Shown: positions 1,904 through 55,602 of the stretch, in pieces | How positions within the stretch are numbered: position 1 is the stretch's first letter | How the letters are laid out: each line of letters begins with the position of its first letter | Origin: Holophagales bacterium | Lineage (GTDB): Bacteria > Acidobacteriota > Thermoanaerobaculia > Multivoradales > Multivoraceae | DNA: 64,000 bases | NCBI GenBank assembly: GCA_009836625.1 | Contig: VXVC01000012.1 | Coordinates: forward strand, 608,847 to 672,846 | Reading direction: 5' to 3' | The notes under the pieces: generated by a model | Told to the model about the DNA's origin: nothing | The model's input: only the letters and a program-made list of their open reading frames with translations | The model's database searches: none | Translations under genes and position numbers: made by a program

Positions 1904-1973
1904 GGGGACGCTCCTTTCGGTTCCCGGAATCGTAGACGCTCTCCGAGCACTTCGGGTTGCCGTTTCTGACGTG

Positions 1974-6468: not shown

Positions 6469-6512
6469 GGTGGTTCGCCCCGGGGCAGGGCGTCCTAGTC
6501 TATGCCTCCCTT

Positions 6513-8072: not shown

Positions 8073-8082
8073 TTCGTCGTCC

Positions 8083-9132: not shown

Positions 9133-9157
9133 GAGGACGCCCGGACGAAGCTCCGGT

Positions 9158-10156: not shown

Positions 10157-10220
10157 GCGTGTGACTCCTACATTCACGAAGACGGGAGGTGTTCCATGGG
10201 CCATCCAGCGGTGGCGGGTG

Positions 10221-34583: not shown

Positions 34584-35594
34584 ATGCCGAGATGCTGTCC
34601 GGGCCGTGTTCTGATGCCGACGTTCCTGCTCTTGCTCCTCGTCGCGGGAGCGGCTTTGGCCGAGGAGTGGACTGCTCCGCGCACGGCCGACGGCCACCCC
34701 GACTTCCAGGGCATCTGGGCCAACAACAGCGCGACGCCGCTCGAGCGGCCCAAGTCCTTCGGCGAGAAGGCGACCCTCACCGACGAAGAGCTCGCCGACC
34801 TCAAGCGCCGGCTCGAGGAGATCCGGGAGGGTTCCCAGGCCGGCGACCTGCTGGGCGACTACCTGATCCAGCGGGTGCTGGAGGATCCCGAGTTCCGCGG
34901 TTTCGACCAGGTGACCGGCAACTACAACTCGTTCTGGCTCGTCGACCGGGAACTCGACAACCGCACGTCACTCGTGGTGGACCCGCCGGACGGCCGCATT
35001 CCGGCCCTGACTGAGCGGGCGATGGAACGGATGCGGGCCGCGGTGGCTTACGGCGACGAGGTGCCCGCCGGCCCCGAGGACATGCCGGTCGCAGTCCGCT
35101 GCATCAGCTACGGCGTGCCGAACACCCTGGCCGGCTACAACAGCTACTTCCAGTTCTTCCAGACGGCGGACCACGTCGCGATCCTCCAGGAGCTGATCCA
35201 CGACGTGAGGATCATCCCGCTCGGAGAACCGGCGCCGCTGCCCGACGACCTGCGACTCTGGCACGGCAACTCCCGGGGCTGGTTCGAGGGTGACTCGCTA
35301 GTGGTCGAGACGACGCACTATTCCGAGGCCGGCAGCTCCCGGGGCCGGGCGACGGACAGTCTCAGGGTGGTCGAGCGCTTCACGCGCACCGGTCCCGAGA
35401 CGATCGAGTGGGAGATCACCTACGAGGACGAGGCGACCTGGGTGCGTCCCTGGACGATGATGATCCGGCTCGCCCGCACCGAGGATCCGATCTTCGAGTA
35501 CGCCTGCCACGAGGGGAACTACGGTTTGACGAACATCCTGTCGGGCGCCCGCGCTCAGGAGCGGGAAGCGGCGGCAACTGGCGGCGGTCAGTAG
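34584..35594 (+). CDS. Secreted protein of unknown function, YACHEGNY family (paralog 1)
   Basis: The 336-residue protein has a signal peptide (MPTFLLLLLVAGAALAEEW) and a globular domain seen again at 55.6 kb. Shared landmarks are DGHPDFQGIWANN, SLVVDPPDGRIPALT, FQTADHVAILQELIHDVRIIPL, RGWFEGDSLVVETTHY, ERFTRTGPETIEWE and the C-terminal FEYACHEGNYGL. These motifs are familiar from many hypothetical proteins in acidobacterial genomes, but I know of no assigned function. The conserved His and Cys in the final motif could be catalytic or metal-binding. The ATG has an AGGAGA site seven bases upstream. Confidence 0.82.
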   Translation: MPRCCPGRVLMPTFLLLLLVAGAALAEEWTAPRTADGHPDFQGIWANNSATPLERPKSFGEKATLTDEELADLKRRLEEIREGSQAGDLLGDYLIQRVLEDPEFRGFDQVTGNYNSFWLVDRELDNRTSLVVDPPDGRIPALTERAMERMRAAVAYGDEVPAGPEDMPVAVRCISYGVPNTLAGYNSYFQFFQTADHVAILQELIHDVRIIPLGEPAPLPDDLRLWHGNSRGWFEGDSLVVETTHYSEAGSSRGRATDSLRVVERFTRTGPETIEWEITYEDEATWVRPWTMMIRLARTEDPIFEYACHEGNYGLTNILSGARAQEREAAATGGGQ

Positions 35595-35625: not shown

Positions 35626-37215
35626 CTACTCGATCGCCTCGAGCGGGACCGCGCTCGCGAGTTTGAGATCTCGGCTCGTCACGCGGACCTCGCGCTCGAT
35701 CGCCGCGTCCTGAGCGTGGTCGGTGTAGTAGGTCAGGACGTGCTGGTGCCGCAAGTCCTCCTGGATCTGGTCGAAGACCTTCTGGAACCGCTCGGTGATG
35801 GGTGGGCCACCTGTCAGGAGTTCTACGGTGAAGACCCGTCCGCCTGTCCGCTGACTGATTCGCTTGAGACGGTTGCGGGCTCGGCGTTGTGCAAGCGTGG
35901 TGCTCGATCGGAAGTGTGTGCGACCCGCGGAGTCCCTGACCCTGGTCGTTCTGGTGGACCGATCCAGTTGGATGAAGTAGATCGGAATGCCGCGGCGCTC
36001 GGCCAGCGCGGCTGACTGGTTTCGCTCCGACCGGCTGTGTTCGTCGACGCCGTCGGTCACGACGACCAGCGCCCGGCGGCCCGGCTCGCTCCGATACTGG
36101 AGTAGGGAGAAGAGGATGCCGTCGTTCAGTGCCGTGCCCAACCTGGGCACGAGTGATCGAACCCGGCTCAGGAGGAGGCGTTTGTACTCGGTCAACTCGC
36201 AGGCCAGACGAACCGTGCCGGCGAAGTCGACAACGAAGGCCCTGTCTCCCGTTGACAGGGCAGACTCCAGGAACCCGGATGACACCTCTCTCAGCTGGTG
36301 CCAGATCGGTCTGACGCTGTTCGATGTGTCGATGGCAAGGCCAAGAACCAGGGGTACGTCGTAAGCGGTGTGCAGGGCCACCGCGGGCCGCCTTCGGCCG
36401 TTCTCACGGATCTCGAAGTCCTCGGGAGAGAGTCCGCTCACGGGGTTGCCCTCGTTGTCCGTTACCAGCAACTGGAACTGGACCAGTTCGACGTCGATCT
36501 CGCTCTGGTAGTCGGCGCCCTCGATGAGTTGAGCGTCTTCCGACTCGCGACCGTTGGCGAGCGTCGCCACAACGCGGACGAAGTCGTCTCTGGACGCGTA
36601 CTCCATCAGGGCATCGACCGGGATCGTGCGGGGATCGCCCGGCGCCGCGTCTGCCCCGAAGCGGGACACGGTCTCGACCAGGCGCTCGCCGCGAAGGAAC
36701 GCGACCTGTTCGAGTTTCTCGGACCGTGGCAGCGAGACGTCCACCTCGATCCGCACTGCGTCGTACCCGGACTGCTGCAGGCGGCGCATCGCCTTGATGC
36801 GGACGCCGAATGGTAGGTCCGGTTCGTTGAGGATCATCCGGCCAGTGCCGAGGAGCTCGCCCAGCGCGTCGTAGCCGCGGACTTCGAGGGTCTGTTTCCG
36901 GGGCGGTCGGGCCAGTTCGACGTGGCCTGTGAACGGCTTCTTCCTGACCCTCCTCTTCAGCTCGCCGTCGAGAAGGAAGTCGAGCGCCGTGATCTGCGGA
37001 TGGATGATCAGGGTCTGGATCTCGACCCTGCCGCTGAACGGCTGAAGGTAACCGCGGGTGGGCGGCACGATGTGGATCATCTTCCGCTCCGCGCCCCTCC
37101 GAAAGTCGGGGCTCGCGTCCTGGGCGATGGCCGGCGCCTTCCAGAAGACCGCCGGCGCCGGCGCGAGCACCGCTGCGAGTGCCAGGGCGGTGCGGAAGGG
37201 AGCCGATGGCCGCAC
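35626..37215 (-). CDS. VWFA-domain secreted protein, array member 6 (shortened)
   Basis: The 529-residue protein is the last and shortest of the array. After a signal peptide it goes almost directly into the Ig-like central region (MIHIVPPTRGYLQPFSGRVEIQT, then LEVRGYDALGE). It therefore lacks the N-terminal WxRNxxxSEDP-containing domain of about 150 residues found in its paralogs. The VWFA domain is intact, with the metal site AIDTSNSVRPIW and VVTDGVDEHSR. The C-terminus DLRHQHVLTYYTDH matches the others. The start is GTG at 37215, 15 bases after the preceding gene. It may be a functional short form or an old truncation. Confidence 0.85.
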   Translation of the reverse strand: MRPSAPFRTALALAAVLAPAPAVFWKAPAIAQDASPDFRRGAERKMIHIVPPTRGYLQPFSGRVEIQTLIIHPQITALDFLLDGELKRRVRKKPFTGHVELARPPRKQTLEVRGYDALGELLGTGRMILNEPDLPFGVRIKAMRRLQQSGYDAVRIEVDVSLPRSEKLEQVAFLRGERLVETVSRFGADAAPGDPRTIPVDALMEYASRDDFVRVVATLANGRESEDAQLIEGADYQSEIDVELVQFQLLVTDNEGNPVSGLSPEDFEIRENGRRRPAVALHTAYDVPLVLGLAIDTSNSVRPIWHQLREVSSGFLESALSTGDRAFVVDFAGTVRLACELTEYKRLLLSRVRSLVPRLGTALNDGILFSLLQYRSEPGRRALVVVTDGVDEHSRSERNQSAALAERRGIPIYFIQLDRSTRTTRVRDSAGRTHFRSSTTLAQRRARNRLKRISQRTGGRVFTVELLTGGPPITERFQKVFDQIQEDLRHQHVLTYYTDHAQDAAIEREVRVTSRDLKLASAVPLEAIE

Positions 37216-37230
37216 GCGCTCGCCGCCGTC

Positions 37231-39315
37231 CTAGTCGATTCCCGGCAGCGGGACCGCGCTCAGCAGCCTGAGTCCGCGCCGGGTCACCCTGATCTCCGGT
37301 TCGATGGGGGCGCCCGGCGGGCGATCACTGTAGTAGGTGAGCACGTGCTGATGCCGGAGGTCCTCCTCGATCTGATCGAACACCTGCTCGATTCGCTCGA
37401 CCCACGGCGGATCGTCGCTGAGGAGTGGAATCGCAAAGACACGCCCGCCAGTCTGCTTGCTGATCCACCTGAGCCGTCGGCGTGACTCTTGCTGTTGTCT
37501 TGTCGTGCTGGTCCAGATACCGAAAGGGTCATTGGGCTTGAACGTGTCGTCGGATTGGTCCAGTTCGATGAAGTAGATCGGTAGGCCCAGGCGCTCGGCG
37601 AAGTCGGCGGACTGTCCCGGTCGCGTGCGGCTGCGGGTGTCGACGCCGTCCGTGATCACGACGAGGGCGCGGCGGCCTGGTTCGTGACCGTACTGCAGGA
37701 GCGAGAACAGGAGCCCGTCGTTCACGGCGGTGCCGCCCCACGGGGTCAGTCGACCCAGCGCGCGGGAGAGAAGCCCTCTGTCTTCGGTCAACGGCTGGAG
37801 GAGCCTCACCGCGTCGTCGAAGTCCACGATGAAGGCACGGTCTCCCGGCGTCAGGGCGGTCTCCAGGAAGCTCGCGGCAATGGAGTGCAACTCTCGCCAG
37901 ATCGGTAGCACGCTGTCCGAGGAGTCGACTGCCAGACCCAGGACCAACGGGACGTCGTGGGCGGTATGGAGACCTTCCACCGGGCGTGGTTGGCCGTTCT
38001 CGCGGACCTCGAAGTCGCCGGGTGAGAGGCCGCTGACCGGATTGTCCCGGCGATCCGTCACCAGGATCTGGATCTGGATCAGTTGAACGTCGATTTCGCT
38101 CTGGTAGTCAGCGCCCTGGAGGAGTTGCGCGTCCTCCCGTTCGCGGCCATCGGCCAGACGTGCGCTGACGTGGACGAAATCGTTCGCGTCGATTTCAGCG
38201 ATCAGCGCCCCGACGCGGACCGTACCCCTGGTGTCGAGCGCCGCTTCTTCAGTGAAGTCATCCAGGCTGGAGACGAGTTCTTCGCCGCGATGGAACTCGA
38301 CCCGCTCCAGCGCGGCGCTCCTCGGCACCGAGACGGCCGCTTCGACCCGGACCTGGGCGTCCTCGCCGGAATCCTGGGGGCGGATCCGCGCTATCCGGAC
38401 GGAAAACGGCCTGTGGAGCCGGTTGAGGACGACCGCGTCGTTGCCTGCGTACTCCCCGCCGGGGCCCCAGGCTCGGACTTCGAGCGTCTGCTCACGGGGC
38501 GGCTCGGCCAGTTCGAGATCGGTCGCGAAGGGCGGCCTCCTCACAACCGCGGCGAGCTGCCCGTCGACGAGGAAATCGACCGCGGCGATCCGCGAGTCGA
38601 TGACCAGGGTCCGGATTCGGTGACTGCCGCTCAGCAACTCGCGGTAGCCGCTTCGCGGCGGCACGATACGGATGGCCGCCGCTTCGGCGAGGCGCTCCGG
38701 CCGGCGGATGTCGGGAGGATCGGGTCCAAGTACTCTCTCCGGACGGTCGTACACCGTACGGAACTTCACGCCTGCCGTTCGGTGGCCTCGAAACTCGACG
38801 ACTCGAACCAGTTGGTTGCCGTCGCGGTGGAGCGTCTCGACCCGCCGCCACTCCGCGTTCGAAGTTTCGATCGTAGGCGACTCCCTGAAGCCCACGATGC
38901 GGCCCTCGACGTTGTCGGGCCCATGATTCGTGCGCTTTTCGACGTCGAGCGGATAGGCACGGAGGATGCCCCGGTCGTCGCGGACCATGATCGCCTCGCC
39001 CTTGACCCGGATCAGGATCGTGTCGAACCGATCGGCGGCGTCCCGGGCCAATCTCCGCAGGAGCCGGGCGGCGTAGTTGTTCCCCGGGTACAGGCTGGCG
39101 GTCTTTTGAACCGGATCCTCGCTGAGTCCCTCGTTCCGCATCCAGGGGCCCAGCAGAGGGGTCAGCGAAACGTCGTCGTGCGTCGCCTCGCCGTACGGGG
39201 CGGCCTCGTCGCCGGCTGGTGCGGGCTGTGGCGACCAGGCGTGCACGGTCGGCAACCAGATTGCGAACGCGAGCGTGAGGTGACCCACTGCCCCTGCTTG
39301 AATCCGTTCCCGCAT
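37231..39315 (-). CDS. VWFA-domain secreted protein, array member 5
   Basis: The 694-residue protein has a signal peptide, an N-terminal domain with GPWMRNEGLSEDPVQK, a central Ig-like region (AIRIVPPRSGYRELLSG to LEVRAW), and a VWFA-related domain with the metal site AVDSSDSVLPIW and VVITDGVDTRSR. The tail is DLRHQHVLTYYSDRPPG and EPEIRVTRRGLRLLSAVPL. The ATG lies two bases after the stop of the preceding gene. Such domains bind protein ligands through a divalent metal, so a periplasmic or surface adhesive or scaffolding role is plausible but unproven. Confidence 0.86.
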   Translation of the reverse strand: MRERIQAGAVGHLTLAFAIWLPTVHAWSPQPAPAGDEAAPYGEATHDDVSLTPLLGPWMRNEGLSEDPVQKTASLYPGNNYAARLLRRLARDAADRFDTILIRVKGEAIMVRDDRGILRAYPLDVEKRTNHGPDNVEGRIVGFRESPTIETSNAEWRRVETLHRDGNQLVRVVEFRGHRTAGVKFRTVYDRPERVLGPDPPDIRRPERLAEAAAIRIVPPRSGYRELLSGSHRIRTLVIDSRIAAVDFLVDGQLAAVVRRPPFATDLELAEPPREQTLEVRAWGPGGEYAGNDAVVLNRLHRPFSVRIARIRPQDSGEDAQVRVEAAVSVPRSAALERVEFHRGEELVSSLDDFTEEAALDTRGTVRVGALIAEIDANDFVHVSARLADGREREDAQLLQGADYQSEIDVQLIQIQILVTDRRDNPVSGLSPGDFEVRENGQPRPVEGLHTAHDVPLVLGLAVDSSDSVLPIWRELHSIAASFLETALTPGDRAFIVDFDDAVRLLQPLTEDRGLLSRALGRLTPWGGTAVNDGLLFSLLQYGHEPGRRALVVITDGVDTRSRTRPGQSADFAERLGLPIYFIELDQSDDTFKPNDPFGIWTSTTRQQQESRRRLRWISKQTGGRVFAIPLLSDDPPWVERIEQVFDQIEEDLRHQHVLTYYSDRPPGAPIEPEIRVTRRGLRLLSAVPLPGID

Positions 39316-39317
39316 CG

Positions 39318-41345
39318 CTAGTCGATCCCCGGCAGCGGCACCGCGCTGCGCAGCTTCAACCCGCGCCGGGTGACCCGGATCTCCGGTTCGACCAGCGCCC
39401 CGGGAGGCTGGTCGGTGTAGTACGTCAGAACGTGCTGGCGGCGCAGATCCTCTTCGATCCGGGCGAAGACCTGCTCGATCGGCTCGCCCCACCAGCGCGT
39501 GTCGCCGTGGAGCTCCAGGTGGAAGAGACGGCCTCCCGTCGCTTCGGCGATGCGCTGGAGTCGCTCGCGGTTGCGGCGAAGAACAGCAACGCCGGGGTCC
39601 CCGGCGCGGGAGTTGTCGAGTTCGATGAAGTAAATCGGCAGACCCAGCCGCTCCGCGAACTCACTGGACTGCTCTGGGCGCGAACGGCTGTGTTGATCGG
39701 CGCCATCGGTGATCACGACCAGCGCCCGTCGACCCGGCTCGCCGCGGTACTGGAGGAGGGAGAAGAGGAGTCCATCGTTCAGGGCCGTGCCGCCCATCGG
39801 GATCAGGTAGTCGAGTCGGTCGGACAGCAGCGGTTCGTCTTCCGTCAGCGGCTGGACGAGGCGCACGGTGTGATCGAAGTCGACGAGGAAGGCCCGGTCC
39901 CCGGGCGTCACCGCGGTTTCCAGGAAGCTCCGCGCGATGAACTTAAGGCGACTCCAGGTGGGCAGCATGCTGTCCGACGAATCGACCGCGAGCCCCAGGA
40001 CGAGAGGCACGTCGTAGGCGGTGTGGAGGTCTACTGCAGGGCGGCTCCGGCCGTTCTCGCGTATCTCGAAGTCCCCGGGCGAGAGTCCGCTCACCGGATT
40101 GCCGTCGCGGTCGGTCACCAGCACCTGGAACTGGACAAGCTGGATGTCGATCTCGCTCTGGAACTCGGAGCCCTGGAGGAGTTGCGCGTCTTCACGCTCA
40201 CGGCCGTCGGTGAGCTTCGCGACGACGCGGATGAAGTCGTCGGGCAGGGCGCCGTCGACCAGCGCCTCGACCTGAATCGTGCGCGCGGCGCCTGCGGCTG
40301 CCTCTCGCCCAAAGTGACGCACAGCCTCGACGAGAAGGTTGCTCCGGTAGAACTCGACCCGCTCGAGCGTCGCGCCGCGGGGTAGCGAAAGCGAGGCAGC
40401 TACCCGGATCGCGGCGTTTCCGCCTACCGGAACGCTCCTTATGGCCGCGATGCGGGCGGCGAAAGGTCGGTCCACCTGGTTGAGGGGGAAATCGTCGCGG
40501 CCGAGGTACTCTCCGTTCCTGTCGTAAGCGACGACTCCGAGCTCCTGCTGGCGAGGTGGGTCGGCCAGACGGATGCGAGTCCTGAAGGGCCGTTTCCGGA
40601 CCCGTCTGATTCGTTCGCCGTCGAGAGAGAACTCGACTTCGACGATTCGCGGGTCGATGATCAGTGTCTGGATCTCGACGCGTCCGCTGAGTAGTTCGCC
40701 GTAACCGCGTTCGGGCGGCAGGATGCGGATGGCGGCCGGAGGGTCGGTCACCGGGGACTCCAGGTCGAGCGGTCCCGGCCTCTCGTAGACCGTGTCGACC
40801 TGGAACGGGGGCAGGCCGCGAGGTTCGAGGTCGGTCCACCGTACGAGCCACTCGCGCTCCCGGAAGAAGGTGTCGGTCTGACGTCCGTAGGGCTCGACGA
40901 TCTCGATCGTCAGTGTCTCGCCGGCTTCGAGAATGCGCCCCTTGACGCCACGACCGAGGTGGCGCCGCCTTCCGTTGTACGGGAGAACGCGCGTGCCGCC
41001 GCGGCCGTCGAGGAGCGCGACGTCGCGTTCGAGAGTGCGGATCATGAGCGTCTCGAAACTGTCGGCGACTCCTTGCGCGATCTCGCGCAGTCTTGACAGG
41101 TCCTGTTCCGACTCGAGGTCGAGACTCTCGACCTTGTGGACAGGGTGTTCGCTGAACGCGTCGTTTCTGATCCACGGTCCGAGGACGCTGGAGGAGCGGA
41201 GTTCCTCGCTGATGTCGAGGAAGCCGAACGTTTGATTGCCTGGGGGTTGTCCCGCGCTCGGTGCCGGCAGAAGACCCGTGAGGGCCAGTACCGACGCTGC
41301 CGCCAACCTCACGGGCCGCTCCCACCTTCGACCTGGGCTCATCAT
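39318..41345 (-). CDS. VWFA-domain secreted protein, array member 4
   Basis: The 675-residue protein has the same architecture as member 5: signal peptide, GPWIRNDAFSEHPVHK (His replacing the usual Asp), the Ig-like region AIRILPPERGYGELLSG, VWFA with AVDSSDSMLPTW and VVITDGADQHSR, and the tail DLRRQHVLTYYTDQPPG. It differs from member 5 mainly in the N-terminal domain, while the VWFA and tail regions are close to it. This suggests these two are the most recently diverged pair. Confidence 0.86.
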   Translation of the reverse strand: MMSPGRRWERPVRLAAASVLALTGLLPAPSAGQPPGNQTFGFLDISEELRSSSVLGPWIRNDAFSEHPVHKVESLDLESEQDLSRLREIAQGVADSFETLMIRTLERDVALLDGRGGTRVLPYNGRRRHLGRGVKGRILEAGETLTIEIVEPYGRQTDTFFREREWLVRWTDLEPRGLPPFQVDTVYERPGPLDLESPVTDPPAAIRILPPERGYGELLSGRVEIQTLIIDPRIVEVEFSLDGERIRRVRKRPFRTRIRLADPPRQQELGVVAYDRNGEYLGRDDFPLNQVDRPFAARIAAIRSVPVGGNAAIRVAASLSLPRGATLERVEFYRSNLLVEAVRHFGREAAAGAARTIQVEALVDGALPDDFIRVVAKLTDGREREDAQLLQGSEFQSEIDIQLVQFQVLVTDRDGNPVSGLSPGDFEIRENGRSRPAVDLHTAYDVPLVLGLAVDSSDSMLPTWSRLKFIARSFLETAVTPGDRAFLVDFDHTVRLVQPLTEDEPLLSDRLDYLIPMGGTALNDGLLFSLLQYRGEPGRRALVVITDGADQHSRSRPEQSSEFAERLGLPIYFIELDNSRAGDPGVAVLRRNRERLQRIAEATGGRLFHLELHGDTRWWGEPIEQVFARIEEDLRRQHVLTYYTDQPPGALVEPEIRVTRRGLKLRSAVPLPGID

Positions 41346-41364
41346 CGGCGAACTGCCGCCGTGG

Positions 41365-43656
41365 CTACTCGATCGTCTCGAGCGGCAACGCGCTTCGCAC
41401 CCGGAGGCCTCTTTGGGTCATCCGCACTTCCGGCTCCACGGCCGAGCCGAACGGACGCTCGCTGTAGTACGTCAGGACGTACTGGCGCCGCAACTCTTCC
41501 TCGATGTGGTCGAACACGCTGGCCATCTGGTCGATCGACTCGATCTGGAACAGGCGGCCGCCGGTCGGCCCGGTGATCAGCCGCATGCTGTTGCGGAGGT
41601 TCGCGTCGTCCATCGTCGTTGGGCCGAAGCCGAGGGAGCGCATGGCGACGACGTAGACGGGCACTCCCAACCGCTTTCCGAAATCGATCGCGCGGGTTGG
41701 GTCGGAGCGGCTGTTCGAGTCGAAGCCGTCGGTGACGACGACCAGGGCGCGCCGGCCTGGTGTCTCTCCGTACTGCAGGAGGGAGAACAGGATCGCGTCG
41801 TAGAGGGCGGTCTGGCCCTGAGGGAAGAGGCGTTCCAGGCCGCGCGCCAGCAGTGGTTTGCTGCCGGTGAGGGGCTGCACGAGGCGGAGCGTCGAGTCGA
41901 AGTCGACCAGAAAGGCCTGGTCGCGCCAGGTCAGGGCGCCGTTCAGGAAGGCCTCGGCGATCGCGTTCGTCCGGCGCCAGATCGGCTCCATGCTGCCCGA
42001 GGAGTCGATCGCCAGCCCCAGGGACAGGGGGATGTCGTTCGAGACGTAGAGATTCTCGACCTGGCGCCGCTGGCCGTTCTCGCGGACCTCGAAGTCCTCC
42101 GGCGTGAGATCGCCGACCGGGTTGCCGCTTCGGTCGACGACGAGTACCTGGAGCTGGACGAGCTGGACGTCGATCTCGGCCTGGAACCGGGCGCCCTGGA
42201 GCAGTTCGACATCTTCGAGTTCCCGGCCGTCTCCCAGGCGCGCCACGACCCGGACGAAGTCCTGGGGCGTGACGCCGGAGATCGGGACGTCGGCCGCCAC
42301 CGAGCGCACGCCGCTCGGCCCGGCCTCACCCTCGAAGTCATCGAACGACGCGACCAGCCGTTCCGTGCGGTAGAACTCGACGCGCTCCAGCGTCTCTGCG
42401 CGCGGCACGGAGATGCCGGCCTCCACGCGAACGATTGCCTGGCCGCCGGTATCGCCGGCAGTGATGCCGGCGATACGCACCGCGAATGGGGGATCTAGGC
42501 GGTTCAGAACGATCCTGTCGGTTCCCGCGTGGGCGCCCCGGGCGCTGGTCGCGCGAACCTCGATCGTCTGCTCGCGAGGCGGATCGGCGAGCCTGATCCG
42601 TGCCTCGAACGGCGGTGTGGTGACGCGGGCCGCCGGCTCGCCGTCGAGAAGGAACTCGACGACGGCGATCTGCGGGTCGATGGTGAGGGTCTGAATCACG
42701 ATCCGGCCGGTGAGCAACTCGCGGTAGCCGCGCTCGGGCGGCAGAATGCGGATCGTCGCCGGCCGCGCGCTCCGTGCGCTGTCCGCGCGCTCCGGCCGCC
42801 TCCCGCCGCGACCGCCCTCGACCGGCGGCAGGAAGTCCGCCTTGTTGAAGCCGTCCTCGTCCGGTTCGGCGGCAGCCTCGCTGGCGCGCCGCGTGGACGC
42901 CGGAACCGGGACCGCGGGCGCGTCGCCGGAGCGCTCGTAGACGGTGCGGAACGAGAGATCGGCGAAGCGTCCTCCCTGGAGGTCGGTTACGAGAACGAGC
43001 CGATCGCCCTCCAGGTAGAAGGTCTCGATCCGCTGGCGCCCCTGGGAGGCAGTCTCGACCTCGAGCGAGTCACCGAGAAGGCGGGCGCGGCTACGGCCGC
43101 CGAAGCCGTCGGCGATGTCGCGCCCGTCGAGATAGAGGATGCGGTCCTCGCGCTTCGCGTTGCGGATCAGAAGCTGGGGGTCGTCGATGCGGATCAGCAG
43201 GACGTCGAGCCGCTCGGCGAGTTCTCGCGCCATCTCGCGCATTCCCGACGGGCCGTCCTGTGTGGCGCCCGGCTGTCGGCCGGTGCGGCCGCCGCCGAAT
43301 CCGCCACGGCCTGAACCGCCCTGGCCGCCGCGGCCGAAGCCGCCGGTGCGTCCGCTGCCGGGGTTCGCGCCCGGCGACCGGCCCGGGCCTCCGCCGAAGG
43401 TCTGCCCGTAGGTCTCCTCGAGCTTTTCGATCGGGTCTTCGCTCAGCTTCTCGTCCCGGACCCAGATGCCCGGGATGGCGGCGACCGGGTCGTCGACCAC
43501 GGTGGCGACCGACGTGTGCTGTGGAGCGGCCTCCTGAGCGAGGGCCGGGGCTGTGGAGGGCGCGATGAGCAGGCCCAAGACGCTCGCTGTCAGCCACGTG
43601 CTTGCGGAGCGGAGGGAGCGAAGCCGGTTTCGCCCGTTTTCGTCGTTCCTCGTCAT
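41365..43656 (-). CDS. VWFA-domain secreted protein, array member 3, with Gly/Arg-rich insert
   Basis: At 763 residues this is the longest array member. After a signal peptide and GIWVRDEKLSEDPIEK it has a low-complexity Gly/Arg/Phe-rich stretch of about 45 residues (around residues 87-131) absent from its paralogs. An extra acidic linker lies near residue 260. The Ig-like region TIRILPPERGYRELLTG and the VWFA domain with AIDSSGSMEPIW (a canonical metal site) and VVTDGFDSNSR follow. The tail is ELRRQYVLTYYSERPFG. The start ATG at 43656 has AGAGGCGG upstream. Confidence 0.86.
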   Translation of the reverse strand: MTRNDENGRNRLRSLRSASTWLTASVLGLLIAPSTAPALAQEAAPQHTSVATVVDDPVAAIPGIWVRDEKLSEDPIEKLEETYGQTFGGGPGRSPGANPGSGRTGGFGRGGQGGSGRGGFGGGRTGRQPGATQDGPSGMREMARELAERLDVLLIRIDDPQLLIRNAKREDRILYLDGRDIADGFGGRSRARLLGDSLEVETASQGRQRIETFYLEGDRLVLVTDLQGGRFADLSFRTVYERSGDAPAVPVPASTRRASEAAAEPDEDGFNKADFLPPVEGGRGGRRPERADSARSARPATIRILPPERGYRELLTGRIVIQTLTIDPQIAVVEFLLDGEPAARVTTPPFEARIRLADPPREQTIEVRATSARGAHAGTDRIVLNRLDPPFAVRIAGITAGDTGGQAIVRVEAGISVPRAETLERVEFYRTERLVASFDDFEGEAGPSGVRSVAADVPISGVTPQDFVRVVARLGDGRELEDVELLQGARFQAEIDVQLVQLQVLVVDRSGNPVGDLTPEDFEVRENGQRRQVENLYVSNDIPLSLGLAIDSSGSMEPIWRRTNAIAEAFLNGALTWRDQAFLVDFDSTLRLVQPLTGSKPLLARGLERLFPQGQTALYDAILFSLLQYGETPGRRALVVVTDGFDSNSRSDPTRAIDFGKRLGVPVYVVAMRSLGFGPTTMDDANLRNSMRLITGPTGGRLFQIESIDQMASVFDHIEEELRRQYVLTYYSERPFGSAVEPEVRMTQRGLRVRSALPLETIE

Positions 43657-43719
43657 GTTGACCGCCTCTATGTCTTATGCAGGATACAGGCCAGCGGCTT
43701 GCGGTCCGCCAGGAGCTCG

Positions 43720-44472
43720 TTAGATCGCCAGAAAGTCCCGCACTCCCTTCAACACGCACACGGCCCCCAGCGCCAGGATCACCGGCCCGGTGACCCGCCG
43801 GAACTGACGGTCGTCGAACCGGTCGAGAAGGCGGGTTCCGATCCGCGCGCCGGCCACCGCGAGCGTCATGCCGCCTGCGATCAGCCAGGGGGAGAGCCGG
43901 TCGTCGGGCAGCTCCGGCAGGACCGTGCGGGACACCCAGACGTAGTAGCCGATCTTGAGCAGATGACCGACGGTCTGGGTGAACGCCTTGGTGGCGACGA
44001 TCGTGCGCCGGTCGACCTTCGTTTCGAGGTAGAACGCGTCGAGCAGGGGGCCGGACGCGCCGGCGAGAAGCTGCGCGCCGGTGACGGTCAGGCCGCAGAG
44101 CGCGGCCGTGCGCCGGTTGCGGACGTCGAGTCCCCGCAGAGCCGGCAGCAGCCGGGCAACCCAGGGGAAGCTGCCGACGACGATCAGGACCAGCGCCGGG
44201 TCGGGCACGAAGGCGATCGCCACGAACAGCAGCACGGCCAGCGATGCGCCGGCGCCGTACCACGGCAGCACGGACCACATCATGCGGTCGCGGAGGAAGA
44301 GGAATCTGGCGCCGTTCGATGTCGCCTGCACGGCGCCGTGCAGGATCATCGCTCCGGTGACCGGCAGGACGCTCGCCAGCACGGCCATCAGCATCAGACC
44401 GCCGGCCATGCCGAGCACGCCGGAGATGACGGCGGTCAGGAGAACGGTCGCGAGAATCGCTGCCGGGAGCAT
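43720..44472 (-). CDS. TauE/SafE-type permease inside the VWFA array
   Basis: The 250-residue integral membrane protein has about seven or eight hydrophobic helices, starting MLPAAILATVLLTAVISGVLGMAGG. It contains the two short Gly-rich motifs (SGVLGMAGGLML and a later internal repeat with GASGPLLDAF) of the sulfite exporter TauE/SafE family, predicted anion or organosulfur exporters. It sits between array members 2 and 3, with gaps of 52 and 63 bases, all on the same strand. The transported ion is not known from sequence. Confidence 0.82.
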   Translation of the reverse strand: MLPAAILATVLLTAVISGVLGMAGGLMLMAVLASVLPVTGAMILHGAVQATSNGARFLFLRDRMMWSVLPWYGAGASLAVLLFVAIAFVPDPALVLIVVGSFPWVARLLPALRGLDVRNRRTAALCGLTVTGAQLLAGASGPLLDAFYLETKVDRRTIVATKAFTQTVGHLLKIGYYVWVSRTVLPELPDDRLSPWLIAGGMTLAVAGARIGTRLLDRFDDRQFRRVTGPVILALGAVCVLKGVRDFLAI

Positions 44473-44524
44473 CCGGGAGAACTGGGCGGTGACTGGGTGC
44501 GACGCGCTCTGCCGCAGCGGCAGA

Positions 44525-46564
44525 CTAGTCGACCCTGTCGAGGGGCAGGACGCTCTTGACCGTGAGCCCGTCGCGCAACACCTGGACGCCTGGCTCGATC
44601 GCGGCGCCTACCGGGCGGTTGGAGTAGTAGGCCAGCACGTGCTGGCGACGGAGGTCCTCCCTGATCTGGTCGAACACCTGCCGAACCTCGTCGAGGAAGT
44701 CCGGAGGCGGGAGCTCCGGGTCGATCCCGAACAGACGTCCGCCGCTCTGTTGGGCCTGCTGCCGCATGCGAAGGACATGGTCACCGGATCGGGCGGTTCG
44801 CATGAGGGACGCGCCGGCGCTCTCTCCGTCCGGCGTGTGTCCGTTGACGAGGGCGATCCGATCCCTGCCGAGGTCGATGAAGTAGATCGGGATGCCCGTT
44901 CGCTCCGCGAAGCCCGCGGCCTGTTCCGGTTCGGATCGACTGTCGATGTCCATGCCGTCCGTTACGACGATCAGAGCCCGCCTTCCGGGTTCGTTCTCGT
45001 ACTGGACCAGGGAGAACAGGATGCCGTCGTTCAGGGCGGTGCCGCCGTTTGGTATCAGCCGTTCCAGACGGGCCTTCAGCGTCGGTGTACTACCGGTGAG
45101 AGGCTGAAGGAGCCGGATGCTCTCGTCGAAGTCGACCAGGAAGGCTCGATCCTCGGCTGCCAGCGAGGTTTCGAGGAACGTCCCTGCCACCGATCTGAGC
45201 TGGTTCCATACCGGCTTCATGCTGGCCGAGGAGTCGATCGCCATGCCCAGGAGGAGTGGTACTTCACCGGCCTGCTGGACTTCCTCCGCCGCCTTGGGTT
45301 CTCCGTCCTCGACGATCCGGAAGTCGGCCGCGGTCAGTCCGCCGACCGGCGCGCCCTCGGCCTCGACGACGAGGACCTGCAGGTGGACGAGTTGAACGTC
45401 GACCTCGCCCTTGAAGGTAACTCCCTCTAGAAGTTGGGCGTCCTCGAGTTCGCGGCCATCCACGAGACTTGCGGTGACGCGGACGTAGTCCTGCTGCGAC
45501 AGGTCAAGCGCCGGCAGGCTTCCCCTGACTCTCCTGAAGCCGCCTGTGGCGCCGTACCGCGCCAGGTCGTCCACGGTCTCGACCAACTGCTCGTTGCGGT
45601 AGAAGGCGACGCGTTCCAGTCCGGCGCCCCGTGGAACCGCGACACGGACGTCGACGTCAACGTAGGCGCCGTCGGGTTCGTGCGGGGTCACGGCGACGAT
45701 GCGGACCCCGAAGCGTGGGTCGATGCGATTCAGGACAATGCGGTCCTCGCCGACGAAGGCGCCGCGGATGCTGTAGGCGCGCACTTCGAGGGCCTGCTCT
45801 CGCGGCGGCTGGGCGAGGTTGAGCGGGGTGCGGAAGGGAGGCTTGCGGATCCGCCTTCGTCGCCGACCGTCCAGGAGGAACTCCACGCTGCCGATGGTCC
45901 GGTCGACGATCAGGGTCTCGACCTCCACGCGCCCCGTGAGCAGTTCGTGGTGGCCGCGCCGGGGAGGAACGATGCGTATCGCCGCGGGCCGGGCAAACCT
46001 GCTGGTGTCGTCGGCCGGAAGAGTCGCCATCGGAGGCGCGTCGCCACTGCGCTCGTAGACGGTGAGAAACCTCAGGTTGGGGAACCTCTCACTCTGGACC
46101 TCGATGACGCGGTGCAGTTGACCGGATTGCAGGTAGAAGGTCTCGATCAGGAGCCAGCCCGGTCTCGCCGTCTCGATCTCGAGAGTGCCCGGAAGGACAC
46201 TTGCGCGATGCCGGTTTCCGTACTGGTCGGCGACTGCTGAGCCATCTTCCGGCAGCTCAACGACCTCGTGCTCGGCGTTTCGGAGGCGAACCCGGCCGCC
46301 CTCGACGCTGATCCGCAGGCGGCCCATGCGCTCGGCCAGACTTGTCGACAGACCTGTCAGAGCGACGGACGCGCGCTCGGGGTCTCGCCAGAGGCTGGCC
46401 GTTTTCTGGACCGGGTCCTCGCTGACTTCCTCGTTTCGGATCCAACTGCCTTCGAGCGCGGCGATGGAGGCGTCGGTGGCTCCGAACGTCGGGGACGTGA
46501 GGCCGAGAAGGAACAGGACGGAGCTTGCCAGGTGCGGCGACGCGAACGTTGTGGCGGTGTTCAA
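44525..46564 (-). CDS. VWFA-domain secreted protein, array member 2
   Basis: The 679-residue protein has GSWIRNEEVSEDPVQK near its N-terminus, the Ig-like region AIRIVPPRRGHHELLTG, and a VWFA domain with AIDSSASMKPVW and VVTDGMDIDSR. A region between VWFA and tail (VNGHTPDGESAGASLMR) is specific to this member. The tail is DLRRQHVLAYYSNRPVG. The only start after an in-frame stop is TTG at 46564, seven bases after the stop of member 1, with AGAGG adjacent. The N-terminus is hydrophobic but lacks basic residues, so export by the usual signal is less certain. Confidence 0.82.
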   Translation of the reverse strand: MNTATTFASPHLASSVLFLLGLTSPTFGATDASIAALEGSWIRNEEVSEDPVQKTASLWRDPERASVALTGLSTSLAERMGRLRISVEGGRVRLRNAEHEVVELPEDGSAVADQYGNRHRASVLPGTLEIETARPGWLLIETFYLQSGQLHRVIEVQSERFPNLRFLTVYERSGDAPPMATLPADDTSRFARPAAIRIVPPRRGHHELLTGRVEVETLIVDRTIGSVEFLLDGRRRRRIRKPPFRTPLNLAQPPREQALEVRAYSIRGAFVGEDRIVLNRIDPRFGVRIVAVTPHEPDGAYVDVDVRVAVPRGAGLERVAFYRNEQLVETVDDLARYGATGGFRRVRGSLPALDLSQQDYVRVTASLVDGRELEDAQLLEGVTFKGEVDVQLVHLQVLVVEAEGAPVGGLTAADFRIVEDGEPKAAEEVQQAGEVPLLLGMAIDSSASMKPVWNQLRSVAGTFLETSLAAEDRAFLVDFDESIRLLQPLTGSTPTLKARLERLIPNGGTALNDGILFSLVQYENEPGRRALIVVTDGMDIDSRSEPEQAAGFAERTGIPIYFIDLGRDRIALVNGHTPDGESAGASLMRTARSGDHVLRMRQQAQQSGGRLFGIDPELPPPDFLDEVRQVFDQIREDLRRQHVLAYYSNRPVGAAIEPGVQVLRDGLTVKSVLPLDRVD

Positions 46565-46571
46565 CCTCTAC

Positions 46572-48575
46572 CTACTCGAGCCCCTGAAGCGGGAGGATGC
46601 TCCTTAGCGTAACGTCCCTTCTCAGGCTTCGGACCTCCGGCTCGACTGCCTCGCCCTGGGCGAGCTTGCTGTAGTAGGTCAGGACGTACTGGTGCCGGAG
46701 ATCTTCGTTGATCCGGTCGAACACTCGCTCCATCTCCGCGGCCACTTCGGACCGGGGCAGGCCCGGGTGGATTCGAAACAGCCGACCGCCGGTGCGCCGG
46801 GTGAGCTTCCGGACCAGGATGGGCGGTGGTGCGCTCCACCCCACGGCGATGAGGTAGATGGGGACGCCCATCCAATCGGCGAAGTCGCTGACCTGGGCCG
46901 CCTTCGAGCGGCTGTCCGCATCGTTGCCGTCGGTCACCACGACCAGAGCCCGGCGCCCCGGTTCGCGGCCGAAGTGGAGGAGCGAGAACAGCAGGCCGTC
47001 GTTCAGCGCCGTGCCGCCGCCCACCAGCAGGCGGTTGAGTCGGCCGCTGAGCAGGGGCTTGCTGTCGGTCAGCGGTTGCAGGAACCGGACGGTGTCGTCG
47101 AAGTCGACCAGGAACGCGCGATCGTCCGTGGCCAGGGCGGCTGCCATGAACATCCTGACGACCGTCTGCAGGCGTTGCCAGACCTTTGTCATGCTCCCCG
47201 AGGAGTCGATCGCGATCCCGAGCAGGAGAGGGACGTCGTTGGAGGCGTGCAGGTTCTCTACGGGGCGTCTTTCGCCGTTCTCGTGGATCTCGAAGTCCGC
47301 CGGCTGGAGATCACCCACGGGCTCGCCGTCACGGTCGACCGCCAGTATCTGGAGTTGGACCAGTTGCACGTCGACCTCGCCGCTGTACTCCGCTTCCTGG
47401 AGGAGTTCGGCATCTTCCCGTTCCCGGCCGTCCGCGAGTCTCGCCACCACTCTGATGAAGTCGCCGGGTTCGACATCCCCGACCGGCGCTTCGACACGGA
47501 TCGTTCGGGGCTCCCGCTGGATCTCCTTCCAGTCCGGGTCCTCGAAGGTCGCGAGCCGACGATCACTCAGGTAGAACTCGACGCGGGCCAGCGCCGCCGC
47601 GCGTGGCACCGAGACCCGGGCCGCGACACTGACGGCCGAAGCGCCTCCCGCCACGAGCGGACGGAGAGCCGCAATCTGAACCGCGAAGGGCGAGTGAAGC
47701 CGGTTCAGCACGATCCGGTCCGTGCCGACATGGGCTCTCCCGTCGCGGTAGCCGCGGACTTCGAGCGTCTCTTCGCGGGGCGGATGGCTGAGCCGGACGC
47801 GGGCCTTGAAGGGCCGCTTGCGGGCCTGGTTCACCAGCTTTCCGTCGAGCAGGAACTCGACCGTGTGGATGAGCGGATCGATGACGAGGGCCTGAACCTC
47901 GACCGGTCCGGAGAGGAACTCCCGATAGCTGCCGCGAGGCGGCACGATGCGGATCGCGGGCGGCTCGTCGGATCGGATGCGTTCGACGTCGACCGGGCCG
48001 GCAGGGGGTGGCCTGGCTTCCGCGTGGTCATAGACGGTGGTGAAGTTCAGGTCCGGAACCGTGAGGTTCCGCAGCTCGGTTACGTGCACCAGCCGGTCGC
48101 CCGATCTGTAGTACGTCTCGATCCACTGCCAGGCCAGATCCGTTCCCGAGGTGACGACTTCCAGTACGCCACCTCCGAAGTAGGCGGCGCTTGTCCGGTC
48201 GGCCGTGTAGCGGCGCGGCAAGCCGTCGACGGGGAGGTGGATGGACTCGCGTCTGGCGTTCTCGATCAGGATCCGGTCGCTTTCCGCCTGGATTCTCGCG
48301 CTGCGCCGCCGCTCGGAGAGCCTCTCGGCTACTTCCAGGGACGAGGCAGTTATACGGCTGCGTCCCCCGACGATCGCCGTCAGTTGGTCGATCGGGTCTT
48401 CGCTGAGTTCGTCGTTGCGAACCCAGGTGCCGTTCAGTGTGGCGATGGAGGCCGCATCGGAGTCAGTCCCGGCCGTGCCCTGAGCCGAGCCTGCCTGGGA
48501 GTGAACGGCCGCCTCGGGCGTCGTCCATACAGCGATTGCCAGCAGAGCTGCGCCTGGAGTTGTTTGCGGACGCAT
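46572..48575 (-). CDS. VWFA-domain secreted protein, array member 1
   Basis: The 667-residue protein is the first gene of the array. It starts with a short signal region (MRPQTTPGAALLAIAVW), then GTWVRNDELSEDPIDQ, the Ig-like region AIRIVPPRGSYREFLSG, the VWFA domain with AIDSSGSMTKVWQ and VVTDGNDADSR, and the tail DLRHQYVLTYYSKLAQG. The chosen ATG at 48575 is 34 bases from the divergent permease ATG. The reading frame is open further upstream, but only across the opposite-strand gene. Neither start has a convincing Shine-Dalgarno. Confidence 0.83.
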   Translation of the reverse strand: MRPQTTPGAALLAIAVWTTPEAAVHSQAGSAQGTAGTDSDAASIATLNGTWVRNDELSEDPIDQLTAIVGGRSRITASSLEVAERLSERRRSARIQAESDRILIENARRESIHLPVDGLPRRYTADRTSAAYFGGGVLEVVTSGTDLAWQWIETYYRSGDRLVHVTELRNLTVPDLNFTTVYDHAEARPPPAGPVDVERIRSDEPPAIRIVPPRGSYREFLSGPVEVQALVIDPLIHTVEFLLDGKLVNQARKRPFKARVRLSHPPREETLEVRGYRDGRAHVGTDRIVLNRLHSPFAVQIAALRPLVAGGASAVSVAARVSVPRAAALARVEFYLSDRRLATFEDPDWKEIQREPRTIRVEAPVGDVEPGDFIRVVARLADGREREDAELLQEAEYSGEVDVQLVQLQILAVDRDGEPVGDLQPADFEIHENGERRPVENLHASNDVPLLLGIAIDSSGSMTKVWQRLQTVVRMFMAAALATDDRAFLVDFDDTVRFLQPLTDSKPLLSGRLNRLLVGGGTALNDGLLFSLLHFGREPGRRALVVVTDGNDADSRSKAAQVSDFADWMGVPIYLIAVGWSAPPPILVRKLTRRTGGRLFRIHPGLPRSEVAAEMERVFDRINEDLRHQYVLTYYSKLAQGEAVEPEVRSLRRDVTLRSILPLQGLE

Positions 48576-48609: not shown

Positions 48610-49560
48610 ATGAAGACATACATCCTGCGTCGGTTGCTGGCAATGGTGCCGACGCTGTTCTTCGCCAGTCTGATCGTCTTCGTGTCGATGCGGGTGATCC
48701 CGGGCGACGTGATCGACCTGATGCTGGCGCAGAACGACGTCTCGACCAGCCTGGACCGGGAAACGCTGGAGGCGGCGATGGGTCTCGACCAGCCGATGCT
48801 CTCCCAGTACGTGCGCTGGGCGGGCAACGCGCTGAGCGGCGACCTGGGTCAGTCGCTCTGGCGCAGCACGCCCGTGCTGGAGCAGATTCTGGAACGGCTG
48901 CCGGTGACGTTCGAGCTGGGACTGCTGGCCCTGGTCATCGCGCTGTCCGTCGCCGTTCCGGTCGGCATCCTCTCGGCCACGCGTCAGGACTCGGCCGTCG
49001 ACTACGCGGCGCGCTCGTTCTCCCTCCTGATGCTGGCGATTCCCGGCTTCTGGCTCGGCACCCTGGTCATGGTGTTCCCGTCCGTGTGGTGGCGCTGGGC
49101 GCCGGAACTCGAGTACACGCCGTTCTTCGTCGATCCGATCGCGAACCTCACGCACCTCATCGTCCCGGCGATCCTGCTCGGCCTTTCCCTGTCCGCGGTG
49201 ACGATGCGGATGACCCGGACGATGATGCTGGAGGTGATGCGCCAGGACTACGTGCGCACCGCCCGCGCCAAGGGCCTGCGCGAGCGGGCGGTCGTCGTCC
49301 AGCACGCGCTCAAGAACGGATTGATCCCGGTCGTCACGCTGATCGGGCTGCAGGCGCCGCTGCTGATCGGCGGCGCCGTGGTGATGGAGCAGATCTTCGT
49401 CATTCCCGGCATGGGGCTGCTGCTGCTCGAAGGGGTCTACGAGCGGGACTATCCGGTGATCTCCGGCGTCTTCCTGGTCGTCGGCGTCGCGGTGCTGCTG
49501 ATCAACCTGCTGGTCGACCTGAGCTACGGCTGGCTCGACCCCAAGGTGCGCTACGGATGA
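48610..49560 (+). CDS. Peptide-type ABC transporter permease (DppB-like)
   Basis: The 316-residue permease has about six membrane helices. It begins MKTYILRRLLAMVPTLFFASLIVF, typical of DppB/OppB. The cytoplasmic EAA-type loop (DYVRTARAKGLRERAVVVQHALKNGLIPVVT) contacts the ATPase. It forms a heterodimer with the next gene's product in the inner membrane. The five genes from here to 54.2 kb make up a complete peptide/opine-type importer in the standard order. Confidence 0.93.
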   Translation: MKTYILRRLLAMVPTLFFASLIVFVSMRVIPGDVIDLMLAQNDVSTSLDRETLEAAMGLDQPMLSQYVRWAGNALSGDLGQSLWRSTPVLEQILERLPVTFELGLLALVIALSVAVPVGILSATRQDSAVDYAARSFSLLMLAIPGFWLGTLVMVFPSVWWRWAPELEYTPFFVDPIANLTHLIVPAILLGLSLSAVTMRMTRTMMLEVMRQDYVRTARAKGLRERAVVVQHALKNGLIPVVTLIGLQAPLLIGGAVVMEQIFVIPGMGLLLLEGVYERDYPVISGVFLVVGVAVLLINLLVDLSYGWLDPKVRYG

Positions 49561-49567
49561 GCATGTC

Positions 49568-50464
49568 GTGACCACCGTCGCCGCAGCCGCTCCGGACGCC
49601 ATGCCGGCACGCGACCAACCGCGCTGGTGGCGCTTCACGGTCCGCCTGTTCCGGACCAAGCCGCTGGGTGCGGCGGGCGCGGTGGTCTTCGCGATCTTCC
49701 TGTTTTCCGGCGTCTTCGCCGGCGTGCTCGCTCCCTACGGCATCAACGAGACCGACCTGGCCCATCGCCTCGAGCCGCCATCGCGCCAGTTCCTGCTCGG
49801 CACCGACCACCTGGGCCGTGACCTGTTCTCCAGGGTCCTGATGGGGGCCCGCCTGTCGATGATCGTGGGTTTCTGCGCGGCCGCCCTGGCGACCGTCGTG
49901 TCGATCCTGATCGGCGTGCTCTCCGGCTACCTCGGCGGCTGGTTCGACATGCTCAGCCAGCGCCTGGTCGACGCCTGGATGACCTTCCCCGACCTGGTGC
50001 TCCTGATCGTCATCGTGTCGGTGGTGGGACCGGGGATCACCCAGATCGTGATCATCCTGGGTCTGCTCTACGGCATCGCCGGCTCCCGCATCGTGCGCGG
50101 CGCGGTGACCTCGGTGCGCGAACACGTCTACACCCACGCCGCGCAGTCGGTCGGCGCCGGGACGTTCCACATTCTGCGCCGGCACATTCTGCCCAACGTG
50201 ATGCCGGTCGTCATCGTCCTGTTCACGACCCGCGTCGGCGCCGTCATCCTGTCGGAGGCGGCGCTTTCGTTTCTGGGCCTCGGCGTGCCGCCGCCGGCGC
50301 CGACGTGGGGCGGCATGCTCTCCGGCGACGGCCGCACCTACCTGTACCTTGGGCCGTGGCTGGCGCTTGCGCCCGGCATCTGCCTGACCGTCGTCGTCTA
50401 CGCGGCGAACGTCTTCGGCGATGCTTTGCGCGACCTGCTCGATCCACGGATGAGAGGAACCTGA
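49568..50464 (+). CDS. Peptide-type ABC transporter permease (DppC-like)
   Basis: The 298-residue permease has the DppC/OppC features: a cytoplasmic N-terminus (RFTVRLFRTKPLGAAGAVVF), LGTDHLGRDLFSRVLMGARLS, and the EAA loop AAQSVGAGTFHILRRHILPNVMPVVIV. The GTG start is seven bases after the preceding stop. It is the second membrane subunit of the importer. Confidence 0.93.
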   Translation: MTTVAAAAPDAMPARDQPRWWRFTVRLFRTKPLGAAGAVVFAIFLFSGVFAGVLAPYGINETDLAHRLEPPSRQFLLGTDHLGRDLFSRVLMGARLSMIVGFCAAALATVVSILIGVLSGYLGGWFDMLSQRLVDAWMTFPDLVLLIVIVSVVGPGITQIVIILGLLYGIAGSRIVRGAVTSVREHVYTHAAQSVGAGTFHILRRHILPNVMPVVIVLFTTRVGAVILSEAALSFLGLGVPPPAPTWGGMLSGDGRTYLYLGPWLALAPGICLTVVVYAANVFGDALRDLLDPRMRGT

Positions 50465-50468
50465 CGTC

Positions 50469-52232
50469 ATGCGAGAACGCCTTTCCCTGGTCGGTGCGGT
50501 GGCCCTCACCCTCTTCCTCGGCGCGTGCGGCGACGCGCCCCCCGCCCGTTCCCCGTCGCCGGTCGGCGGCACCGACATGGGAGCCGATCTCTCGTTTGAG
50601 CCCGGCCCGGCGCCGGTGGAGCCGCCCCGCTACGGCGGTGAACTGAACGTCGGCACGGTCTACGTCACCCTGTCGGCGCTGTCCTGGGACACGGCGGACT
50701 GGAACTGGAAGCAGAACCACGACACGGGCATGCTCTACGAGCAGCTGTTCGTCGCCGATCTCGAGCAGGCCGCGGTCCGGGGCGGTGATCAGCGCTTCGT
50801 CTCCGAGGCCTACCTGTCTCAGCAGACGATCCGCGGCGAAGTGGCCGCGAGCTGGGAATGGAAAGACCCGCTGACCCTGGTCATCAAGGTCCGGCGCGGC
50901 ATGATGTTCCCGGCCAAGCCCGGAGTGATGGGGGCGAGGGAGCTCGACGCCCACGACGTCGTGTTCAGTTTCGAGCGCCTGCGCGACAGCCCGAAGGCGA
51001 TTCCGACCTACTTCGACCACATCGACCGCGTCGTGGCCAGGGACGACCACACGGTCGTCTTCGAGTTCGGCGAGTTCAACGCCGAGTGGGACTACCGGTT
51101 CGGCTACGGCTACTTCTCGGGCATCGGGCCGCGGGAGCTCGCCGACGTCGACCCCAAGGACTGGCGAAACGTCACCGGTACGGGTCCGTTTTCGCTGGAG
51201 CGGTTCATCCCCGGCAACTCGCAGACCTACGCCCGCAGGCCGGACTACTGGGACCGGACCACGATCGGCGGCCAGACCTACGAGATCCCCTTCATCGACA
51301 AGCTCACTTACCGCACGATCAAGGACGAGGCGACCTACTTGACCGCCATTCGCACGGGCAAGCTGGACATCCTTGAGTACATCCGCTGGATCGCCGTCGA
51401 CCACCTGAAGAAGACGACCCCCGAGCTGCGCTGGTCGCGCTGGCTGTCGACGGGCGGCACCTTCATGGTCATGCGGGTCGACCAGGAGCCGTTCGACGAT
51501 GTGAGAGTGCGGCGGGCGATCAACCTCGCGGTGAACCAGCGTGAGATCGTCGAGCTGTTCTTCGGCGGCAACGCGGAGCTGTTCGCCTACCCTCAGCACC
51601 CCTCGTGGGAGGGGTACTTCGAGCCGCTCGAGGCGATGCCGCCGTCCGTGCAGGAACTGTTCGAGTACAAGCCCGAAAAGGCGCGCCGCCTGCTGGCCGA
51701 GGCGGGTTACCCCGACGGCTTCACCTTCAGGATGCAGGTGTCGGCCAACAACGCGATGCGGATGGAGCTGGCGCCGCTGCTCGCAAGCTACCTGGACCGC
51801 ATCGGCGTGACGATCGAGATCGAGGTCGTGGAGTACGCGGCCTACCTGTCAATGATGACCACCCGCACCCACGGTCCCGGCTACCTGATGGCCAGCGGCC
51901 ACGTGAACCCGACGACCACGCTCCGCAAGAACTTCGTTACCGGTCAGACCTGGAACCCGTCGATGTGGTCGGACCCGGAACTGGATCGTCGCATCCACGA
52001 GATGTTCCTGACCCGGGACGAGGCCGAGAGGCAGCGGATCGTCAAGCAGATCACGAAGGAGATGCTGGACGAGGCGCCCTACCTCTGGCTTCCGGTGCCT
52101 TACATCTACACGGCCTGGTGGCCGTGGGTGAAGAACTACGGCGGCGAGCTGCGGGCCGGGGCGGTGCGCCCCGGCCCGATCTACGCGCGGCTCTGGATCG
52201 ACCAGGAGATGAAGCGGGAGATGGGCTTCTGA
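50469..52232 (+). CDS. ABC transporter solute-binding lipoprotein, family 5
   Basis: The 587-residue lipoprotein ([10 protein letters not shown] lipobox) is a periplasmic family 5 binding protein (DppA/OppA-like). Visible elements are [75 protein letters not shown] and the long C-terminal lobe. Family members bind peptides, nickel complexes, sugars or opines; the ligand here is unknown. The start ATG is four bases after the permease stop. Confidence 0.92.
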
Positions 52233-52237
52233 GCGCC

Positions 52238-55571: not shown

Positions 55572-55602
55572 ACTGCAAAGACACGGTAAGGAGGAGAGTC
55601 GC

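Follow-up and report, generated by a model that had tools for sequence, protein, structure and literature searches.

Exported VWFA proteins with predicted FABP-like heads in a conserved gene row of one genus of Acidobacteriota

A same-strand row of genes for exported VWFA proteins, here six with one TauE/SafE permease gene among them, lies between the same flanking genes in every locus of its genus that we read, and five of the six proteins carry a variable N-terminal head domain for which a FABP-like fold is predicted. The row was analyzed in a 64-kb window (64,000 nucleotides, referred to throughout as the window) on contig C10 of a 4.3-Mb genome that is 98.8% complete. Membership of the family TIGR03436, the tandem arrangement and the C-terminal tail proved to be ordinary features of these proteins, whereas three features are not: the predicted FABP-type head, a frame that stays constant across the genus while gene cassettes are exchanged within it, and the permease fixed beside a core gene. 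The row had been noticed before in a sequence-only reading, which was partly confirmed as an observation and partly supported in its interpretation.

Layout of the gene row and family membership

Read along the minus strand, the array consists of gene G (46,575-48,575), gene F (44,528-46,564, with a TTG start), the TauE/SafE permease gene (43,723-44,472, 250 aa), gene D (41,368-43,656), gene C (39,321-41,345), gene B (37,234-39,315) and gene A (35,629-37,215, with a GTG start). The start of G, the first gene of the row, was set at the ATG at 48,575 because the longer open reading frame overlaps the divergent ABC transporter gene. Recomputed gaps were 7, 52, 63, 19, 2 and 15 bases from G to A, which bore out the description of a same-strand gene row at 35,626-48,575 with gaps of 2-63 bases. 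The row had been read as five tandem VWFA paralogs around a permease; the permease stands, but the VWFA genes number six. Gene G encodes a signal-like N-terminus followed by the predicted FABP-like barrel, two Ig-like domains, a VWFA domain with an intact MIDAS and the tail, an architecture shared by F, C and B. In gene D, the core paralog, the lid region of the barrel carries a Gly-rich insertion. Gene A is a short paralog in which an Ig region directly follows the signal-like N-terminus and precedes the VWFA domain. The W-x-R-[ND]-x3-SE-x-P domain is found in five of the six array VWFA proteins, so that the domain order claimed for all of them holds for these five but not for A, which lacks the N-terminal WxRNxxxSEDP domain; head-less short forms of this kind recur in relatives, where they close the row or lie close to its 3' end. 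As had been read from the sequence, the DxSxS metal site is intact in all six array proteins, and the MIDAS ligands (DxSxS, T and D) are intact in 102 of the 103 aligned proteins; the remaining one is a truncated frame.

One side of the array is bordered by a fused enoyl-CoA hydratase/3-hydroxyacyl-CoA dehydrogenase gene (32,400-34,499, minus strand) and by a gene of an unnamed secreted-type family marked by the motif PDGHPDFQGIW, with no Pfam match (34,590-35,594, plus strand). A second window gene of the latter family (55,546-56,600) matches the barrel profile weakly (E 5e-4). On the other side lies a divergent operon for an oligopeptide-type ABC transporter (48,610-54,249, plus strand). No terminator-like sites were detected on the minus strand in the array gaps; no sigma-70-like promoters were found either, a search that is uninformative at this G+C content, and the 64-kb window contains no Rfam families or tRNA genes. 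The permease, the single copy in this genome, matches the TauE/SafE family (PF01925) with 45.8 bits against a cut-off of 32.6, but it differs from other family members in being genus-specific and placed beside gene D, its nearest relatives elsewhere in the order being about 33% identical.

All six array VWFA proteins score above the cut-off of TIGR03436 (acidobact_VWFA), with 122-152 bits versus 81.25. This genome holds 42 matches over that cut-off, and counts range from 32 to 43 in the genus members counted and from 18 to 30 in other families of the order. The array branch comprises seven genes of this genome, the six in the array and a lone copy at C12:403,284, and, of all VWFA proteins in the search, those of this branch were the only ones with the barrel head. 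The array proteins thus have the VWFA core and C-terminal tail of TIGR03436 but, in five cases, add a predicted N-terminal FABP-like barrel that lies outside the model.

Two features that the sequence-only reading had singled out turned out to be common to the family. The HVLTYY tail, taken then for a shared unnamed domain, aligns with the C-terminus of a GWxTD-VWFA protein encoded at 3.8 kb, which matches TIGR03436 up to model position 322 of 324, and the tail is therefore the known C-terminus of TIGR03436. Nor are tandem runs of TIGR03436 genes unusual; this genome has others, for example at 110-119 kb of C10. The protein at 3.8 kb (3,814-6,600, minus strand) combines GWxTD, Ig and VWFA domains and belongs to another branch, apart from the array proteins; its Ig and VWFA part is homologous to theirs (479 aligned positions, 29% identity), but a GWxTD domain stands at the N-terminus where they have the barrel. 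About nine related Ig-VWFA genes occur in the genome, some of them paired (C14:33-36 kb and C3:661-665 kb).

Predicted fold and relatives of the head domain

An AlphaFold2 model of the whole gene C product (pLDDT 81) placed the barrel at residues 56-188, the Ig region at 206-389 and the VWFA domain at 402-645. Because a fold search with the whole protein was swamped by VWFA matches, the head of gene C (40,764-41,204, minus strand) was folded alone, which yielded a model with a pLDDT of 93.3 in which one strand is followed by two helices and then by nine strands, as in the betaA-alphaI-alphaII-betaB to betaJ order of FABPs. The best 50 Foldseek matches of this model were FABP, CRBP, UnaG and their relatives, and a VIA comparison with FABP4 gave a Z score of 12.7 over 124 aligned residues, with an rmsd of 3.7 Å. 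A FABP-like fold is accordingly well supported as a prediction. The head had been described as an unnamed domain; it is indeed unnamed, in that Pfam and NCBIfam offered no credible name, but it has many stand-alone relatives and, by profile searches and AlphaFold2 modelling, a recognizable fold.

The stand-alone relatives are exported proteins that occur in the phylum. One is encoded in this genome, at C3:194,646-195,269, and has a long Gly-rich stretch; others were seen in genomes G007, G009 and G017. A profile was built from 18 acidobacterial relatives and searched against 177,635 PDB sequences, after removal of the Gly-rich stretch because profiles that contained it gave only low-complexity matches. 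Intracellular lipid-binding proteins (iLBPs: CRBP, CRABP and FABP) made up 60 of the 60 best matches listed, with a best E of 5.8e-4. In hhalign, the stand-alone family matched five iLBPs over the full length (96.7%, E 4.5e-10), FABP4 alone of the five having had its sequence confirmed letter for letter, and it matched the array heads with 99.3%. On the other hand, hhalign gave no match between the array heads and the iLBPs directly (0.2%), and no iLBP was found among the PDB sequences either with the array-head profile or with a single stand-alone sequence. As a direct sequence match is absent, the link of the array heads to iLBPs runs through their stand-alone relatives and the predicted fold, and on this route homology between the array heads and iLBPs is likely.

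The heads nevertheless differ from the animal iLBPs with which they were compared (FABP4, CRABP2 and CRBP1). They share with these the predicted strand order and the helix-turn-helix between betaA and betaB, and the stand-alone relatives, which match iLBPs by profile, keep the initial GTWxL and the last-strand R-x-Y. FABPs, however, have been characterized as animal proteins of the cytosol (PMC4933562), whereas the array heads are exported and fused to Ig and VWFA domains, and the lid region carries the Gly-rich insertion in gene D and in most stand-alone forms. The window heads read T-V-Y in the last strand, where the stand-alone proteins mostly read R-V-Y, like FABP4; as the Arg of the carboxylate-binding R-x-Y of FABPs is replaced by Thr, fatty-acid binding is not required of the window heads. 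To call the head a FABP thus fails on two features, the direct sequence profile and R-x-Y. The periplasmic protein VtrC of Vibrio has been described as a bacterial calycin whose barrel contains a binding chamber (eLife 2016, PMC4933562), but VtrC is an open eight-stranded barrel that is completed by VtrA and is described as a clade of its own, whereas the array head is predicted to have the ten-strand FABP-type order. A bacterial family with both the sequence profile and the predicted fold of FABPs bears on the origin of the FABP family, and the assignment allows a domain that is common in Acidobacteria, but unnamed, to be named by its structure. A literature search found no paper on TIGR03436, VWFA-related Acidobacteria, "Multivorans thiocomprendens" or bacterial FABP.

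Conservation of the site and history of the paralogs

The head profile matched strongly in all 21 genus members examined, with few and weaker matches outside the genus. In each of the 20 genus loci read, the array lies between the flanks described above, as far as the contigs reach, and contains two to eight VWFA genes. Gene D, beside the permease, was present in every locus, though interrupted in G020, and the permease was found in 19 of the 21 genomes, being absent from G015 and G019 and split over two frames in G008. As the domains are homologous over their length and 20 genomes share the locus, the array is not a product of chance. The common site and flanks, the fixed position of the permease and gene D, and the terminator-free gaps lend support to the earlier proposal of a coherent system. 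Scattered single genes of equal similarity were not encountered within the genus; sister genera have one unlinked array-type gene or none, and no array-type TauE/SafE permease.

The two best head-profile matches outside the genus are D-like genes in sister genera. Genomes G022 and G023 each have a single D-like gene with the Gly-rich insertion, and neither the permease nor the shared flanks were found beside it where the contigs allow a look. Given these single genes, we infer that a D-like single gene was the likely ancestor of the array.

The genus is of the Candidatus Multivorans type, and its members are probably sponge symbionts. Candidatus Multivorans is classified by NCBI in Acidobacteriota, Thermoanaerobaculia, Candidatus Multivoraceae, and a sponge habitat is suggested because names of metagenome-assembled genomes such as COS, RHO and SB fit the sponge metagenomes of PMC8163846, which come from Coscinoderma, Rhopaloeides and Ircinia.

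A tree of 103 array proteins grouped the genes by lineage and not by genome, with separate groups for G, F, D, C, B and A and at least four more. As these ten or more paralog lineages each span several species, most duplications must be old, and the orthologous groups across species rule out recent local duplication as the origin of the array. The proposal that the array was built by repeated duplication therefore holds for its past, while the tree and the identity comparisons indicate loss, decay and exchange between species as the present-day process. Broken copies exist: gene F of G007 (L101, 12,103-13,237) is split over two frames and is probably decaying.

Exchange was assessed against the background identity of a segment at 6,513-10,204 of the window. 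The median shortfall of the array genes was 5 points for D, 11 for C, 17 for A and 20 for G. A block of about 8 kb in G018 (L104, approximately 1,700-9,450) shows 97-100% identity to G014 for the most part, against a background of 86%; past a sharp junction near 9,450, G018 is about 72% identical to G014, whereas its match to the window genome improves from about 70% to 90%. Gene B of the window is 89-94% identical over most of its length to that of the distant species G006, its closest DNA relative (background 85%), but only 80-83% identical to that of G007 (background 96%), a pattern of exchange. Even gene D is not strictly vertical, its identity between G009 and G002 being 85% against a background of 97%. 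One contig of a metagenome-assembled genome may be an assembly chimera; array mosaics were seen in several independent assemblies. In other genomes, copies of the F type lie away from the array site (L120, L143 and L138), which indicates that cassettes also move elsewhere.

Possible roles of the array proteins

Between the window paralogs, pairwise identity was 20-40% in the head, 44-56% in the Ig region and 47-68% in the VWFA domain. Between species, dN/dS was 0.21-0.60 in the head, apart from one near-identical pair, and 0.03-0.31 in the VWFA domain, and it was higher in the head in nearly every comparison; values stayed below 1 throughout, which is compatible with relaxed constraint and with diversification alike. 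The interpretation that best suits a head this variable, mounted on a constant body whose metal site is intact, is a set of exchangeable binding modules that dock through the VWFA domain. We therefore tentatively favor, at a strength somewhat short of probable, an array of exported modular proteins with a putative binding role, made of variable FABP-type calycin heads, Ig spacers and a constant, MIDAS-intact VWFA body. In a full-length member, an FABP/iLBP-type calycin barrel would be held by two Ig-like spacers on the conserved VWFA domain. The heads would bind differing small hydrophobic or host- or neighbor-derived ligands, or protein surfaces, and the VWFA domain would dock to a single shared partner at the cell envelope or surface, through a contact that depends on metal ions. 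Gene D would be the constant member of ancestral type, and the others accessory heads that are kept, lost or swapped by recombination, a turnover to be expected if hosts or communities differ in the partner that is bound. The permease is probably a small-anion exporter working in the same physiological context, its link to the VWFA proteins being putative. The beta-oxidation gene beside the array is a weak hint at lipids. Against this reading, gene A and other short forms are head-less, the permease is missing in two genomes, and gene D departs from strictly vertical descent. A constant frame with exchangeable heads would be a candidate for how related symbionts tune their binding, in bacteria that are abundant and probably host-associated.

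Alternatively, the proteins could be surface adhesins, in which the VWFA MIDAS would bind host or neighbor matrix in the manner of an integrin I-domain or of the pilus tip Mfa5, with the barrel as a mere fold module and the diversity reflecting host attachment. In the fold search, the nearest matches of the VWFA model were I-domains, CMG2, BatB and Mfa5, which is an adhesive pilus tip, and both enrichment and lateral transfer of attachment genes have been reported for sponge symbionts (PMC8163846). However, function is not readable from VWFA-fold similarity alone, no sorting or anchoring signal was noticed in the array proteins, and a conserved VWFA domain under a highly variable head is the opposite of a variable adhesive VWFA, which makes adhesins unlikely. 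Less likely still is a general role in envelope assembly or stress, common to the roughly 42 TIGR03436 paralogs, with the array as one expansion among several and its diversity without a special binding role: the abundance of the family across the order (18-43 per genome) and the other tandem runs of this genome agree with it, but the restriction of the head to the array branch within the VWFA set searched, and a site, permease and gene D conserved genus-wide while accessory genes turn over, do not. Pressure from phages or competitors, with exposed variable proteins as receptors or decoys swapped to escape, would fit cassette turnover and interspecies exchange, but it is improbable, as known defense families are unmatched (no PADLOC model matched at the array, an absence from a library that excludes nothing) and the proteins would have to lie outside the cell.

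The preferred reading of exchangeable binding heads also has a bolder form, which is possible though rather doubtful. Here the head would be a true bacterial homolog of animal FABP/iLBPs, stand-alone in Acidobacteria and, in one probably sponge-associated genus, fused to VWFA and expanded into a cassette locus that recombines and whose exchangeable heads sense lipids or the host.

Tandem TIGR03436 genes were also observed away from the array. The second run on C10 (110,136-118,916) comprises about six TIGR03436 genes that lack the barrel, and further runs lie at C3:600-605 kb and C5:37-42 kb. At L145 (8,228-12,443), which is from an acidobacterium of greater distance, a longer Ig-VWFA gene adjoins a head-less Ig-VWFA gene, a pair that is possibly an older arrangement of the head-less form.
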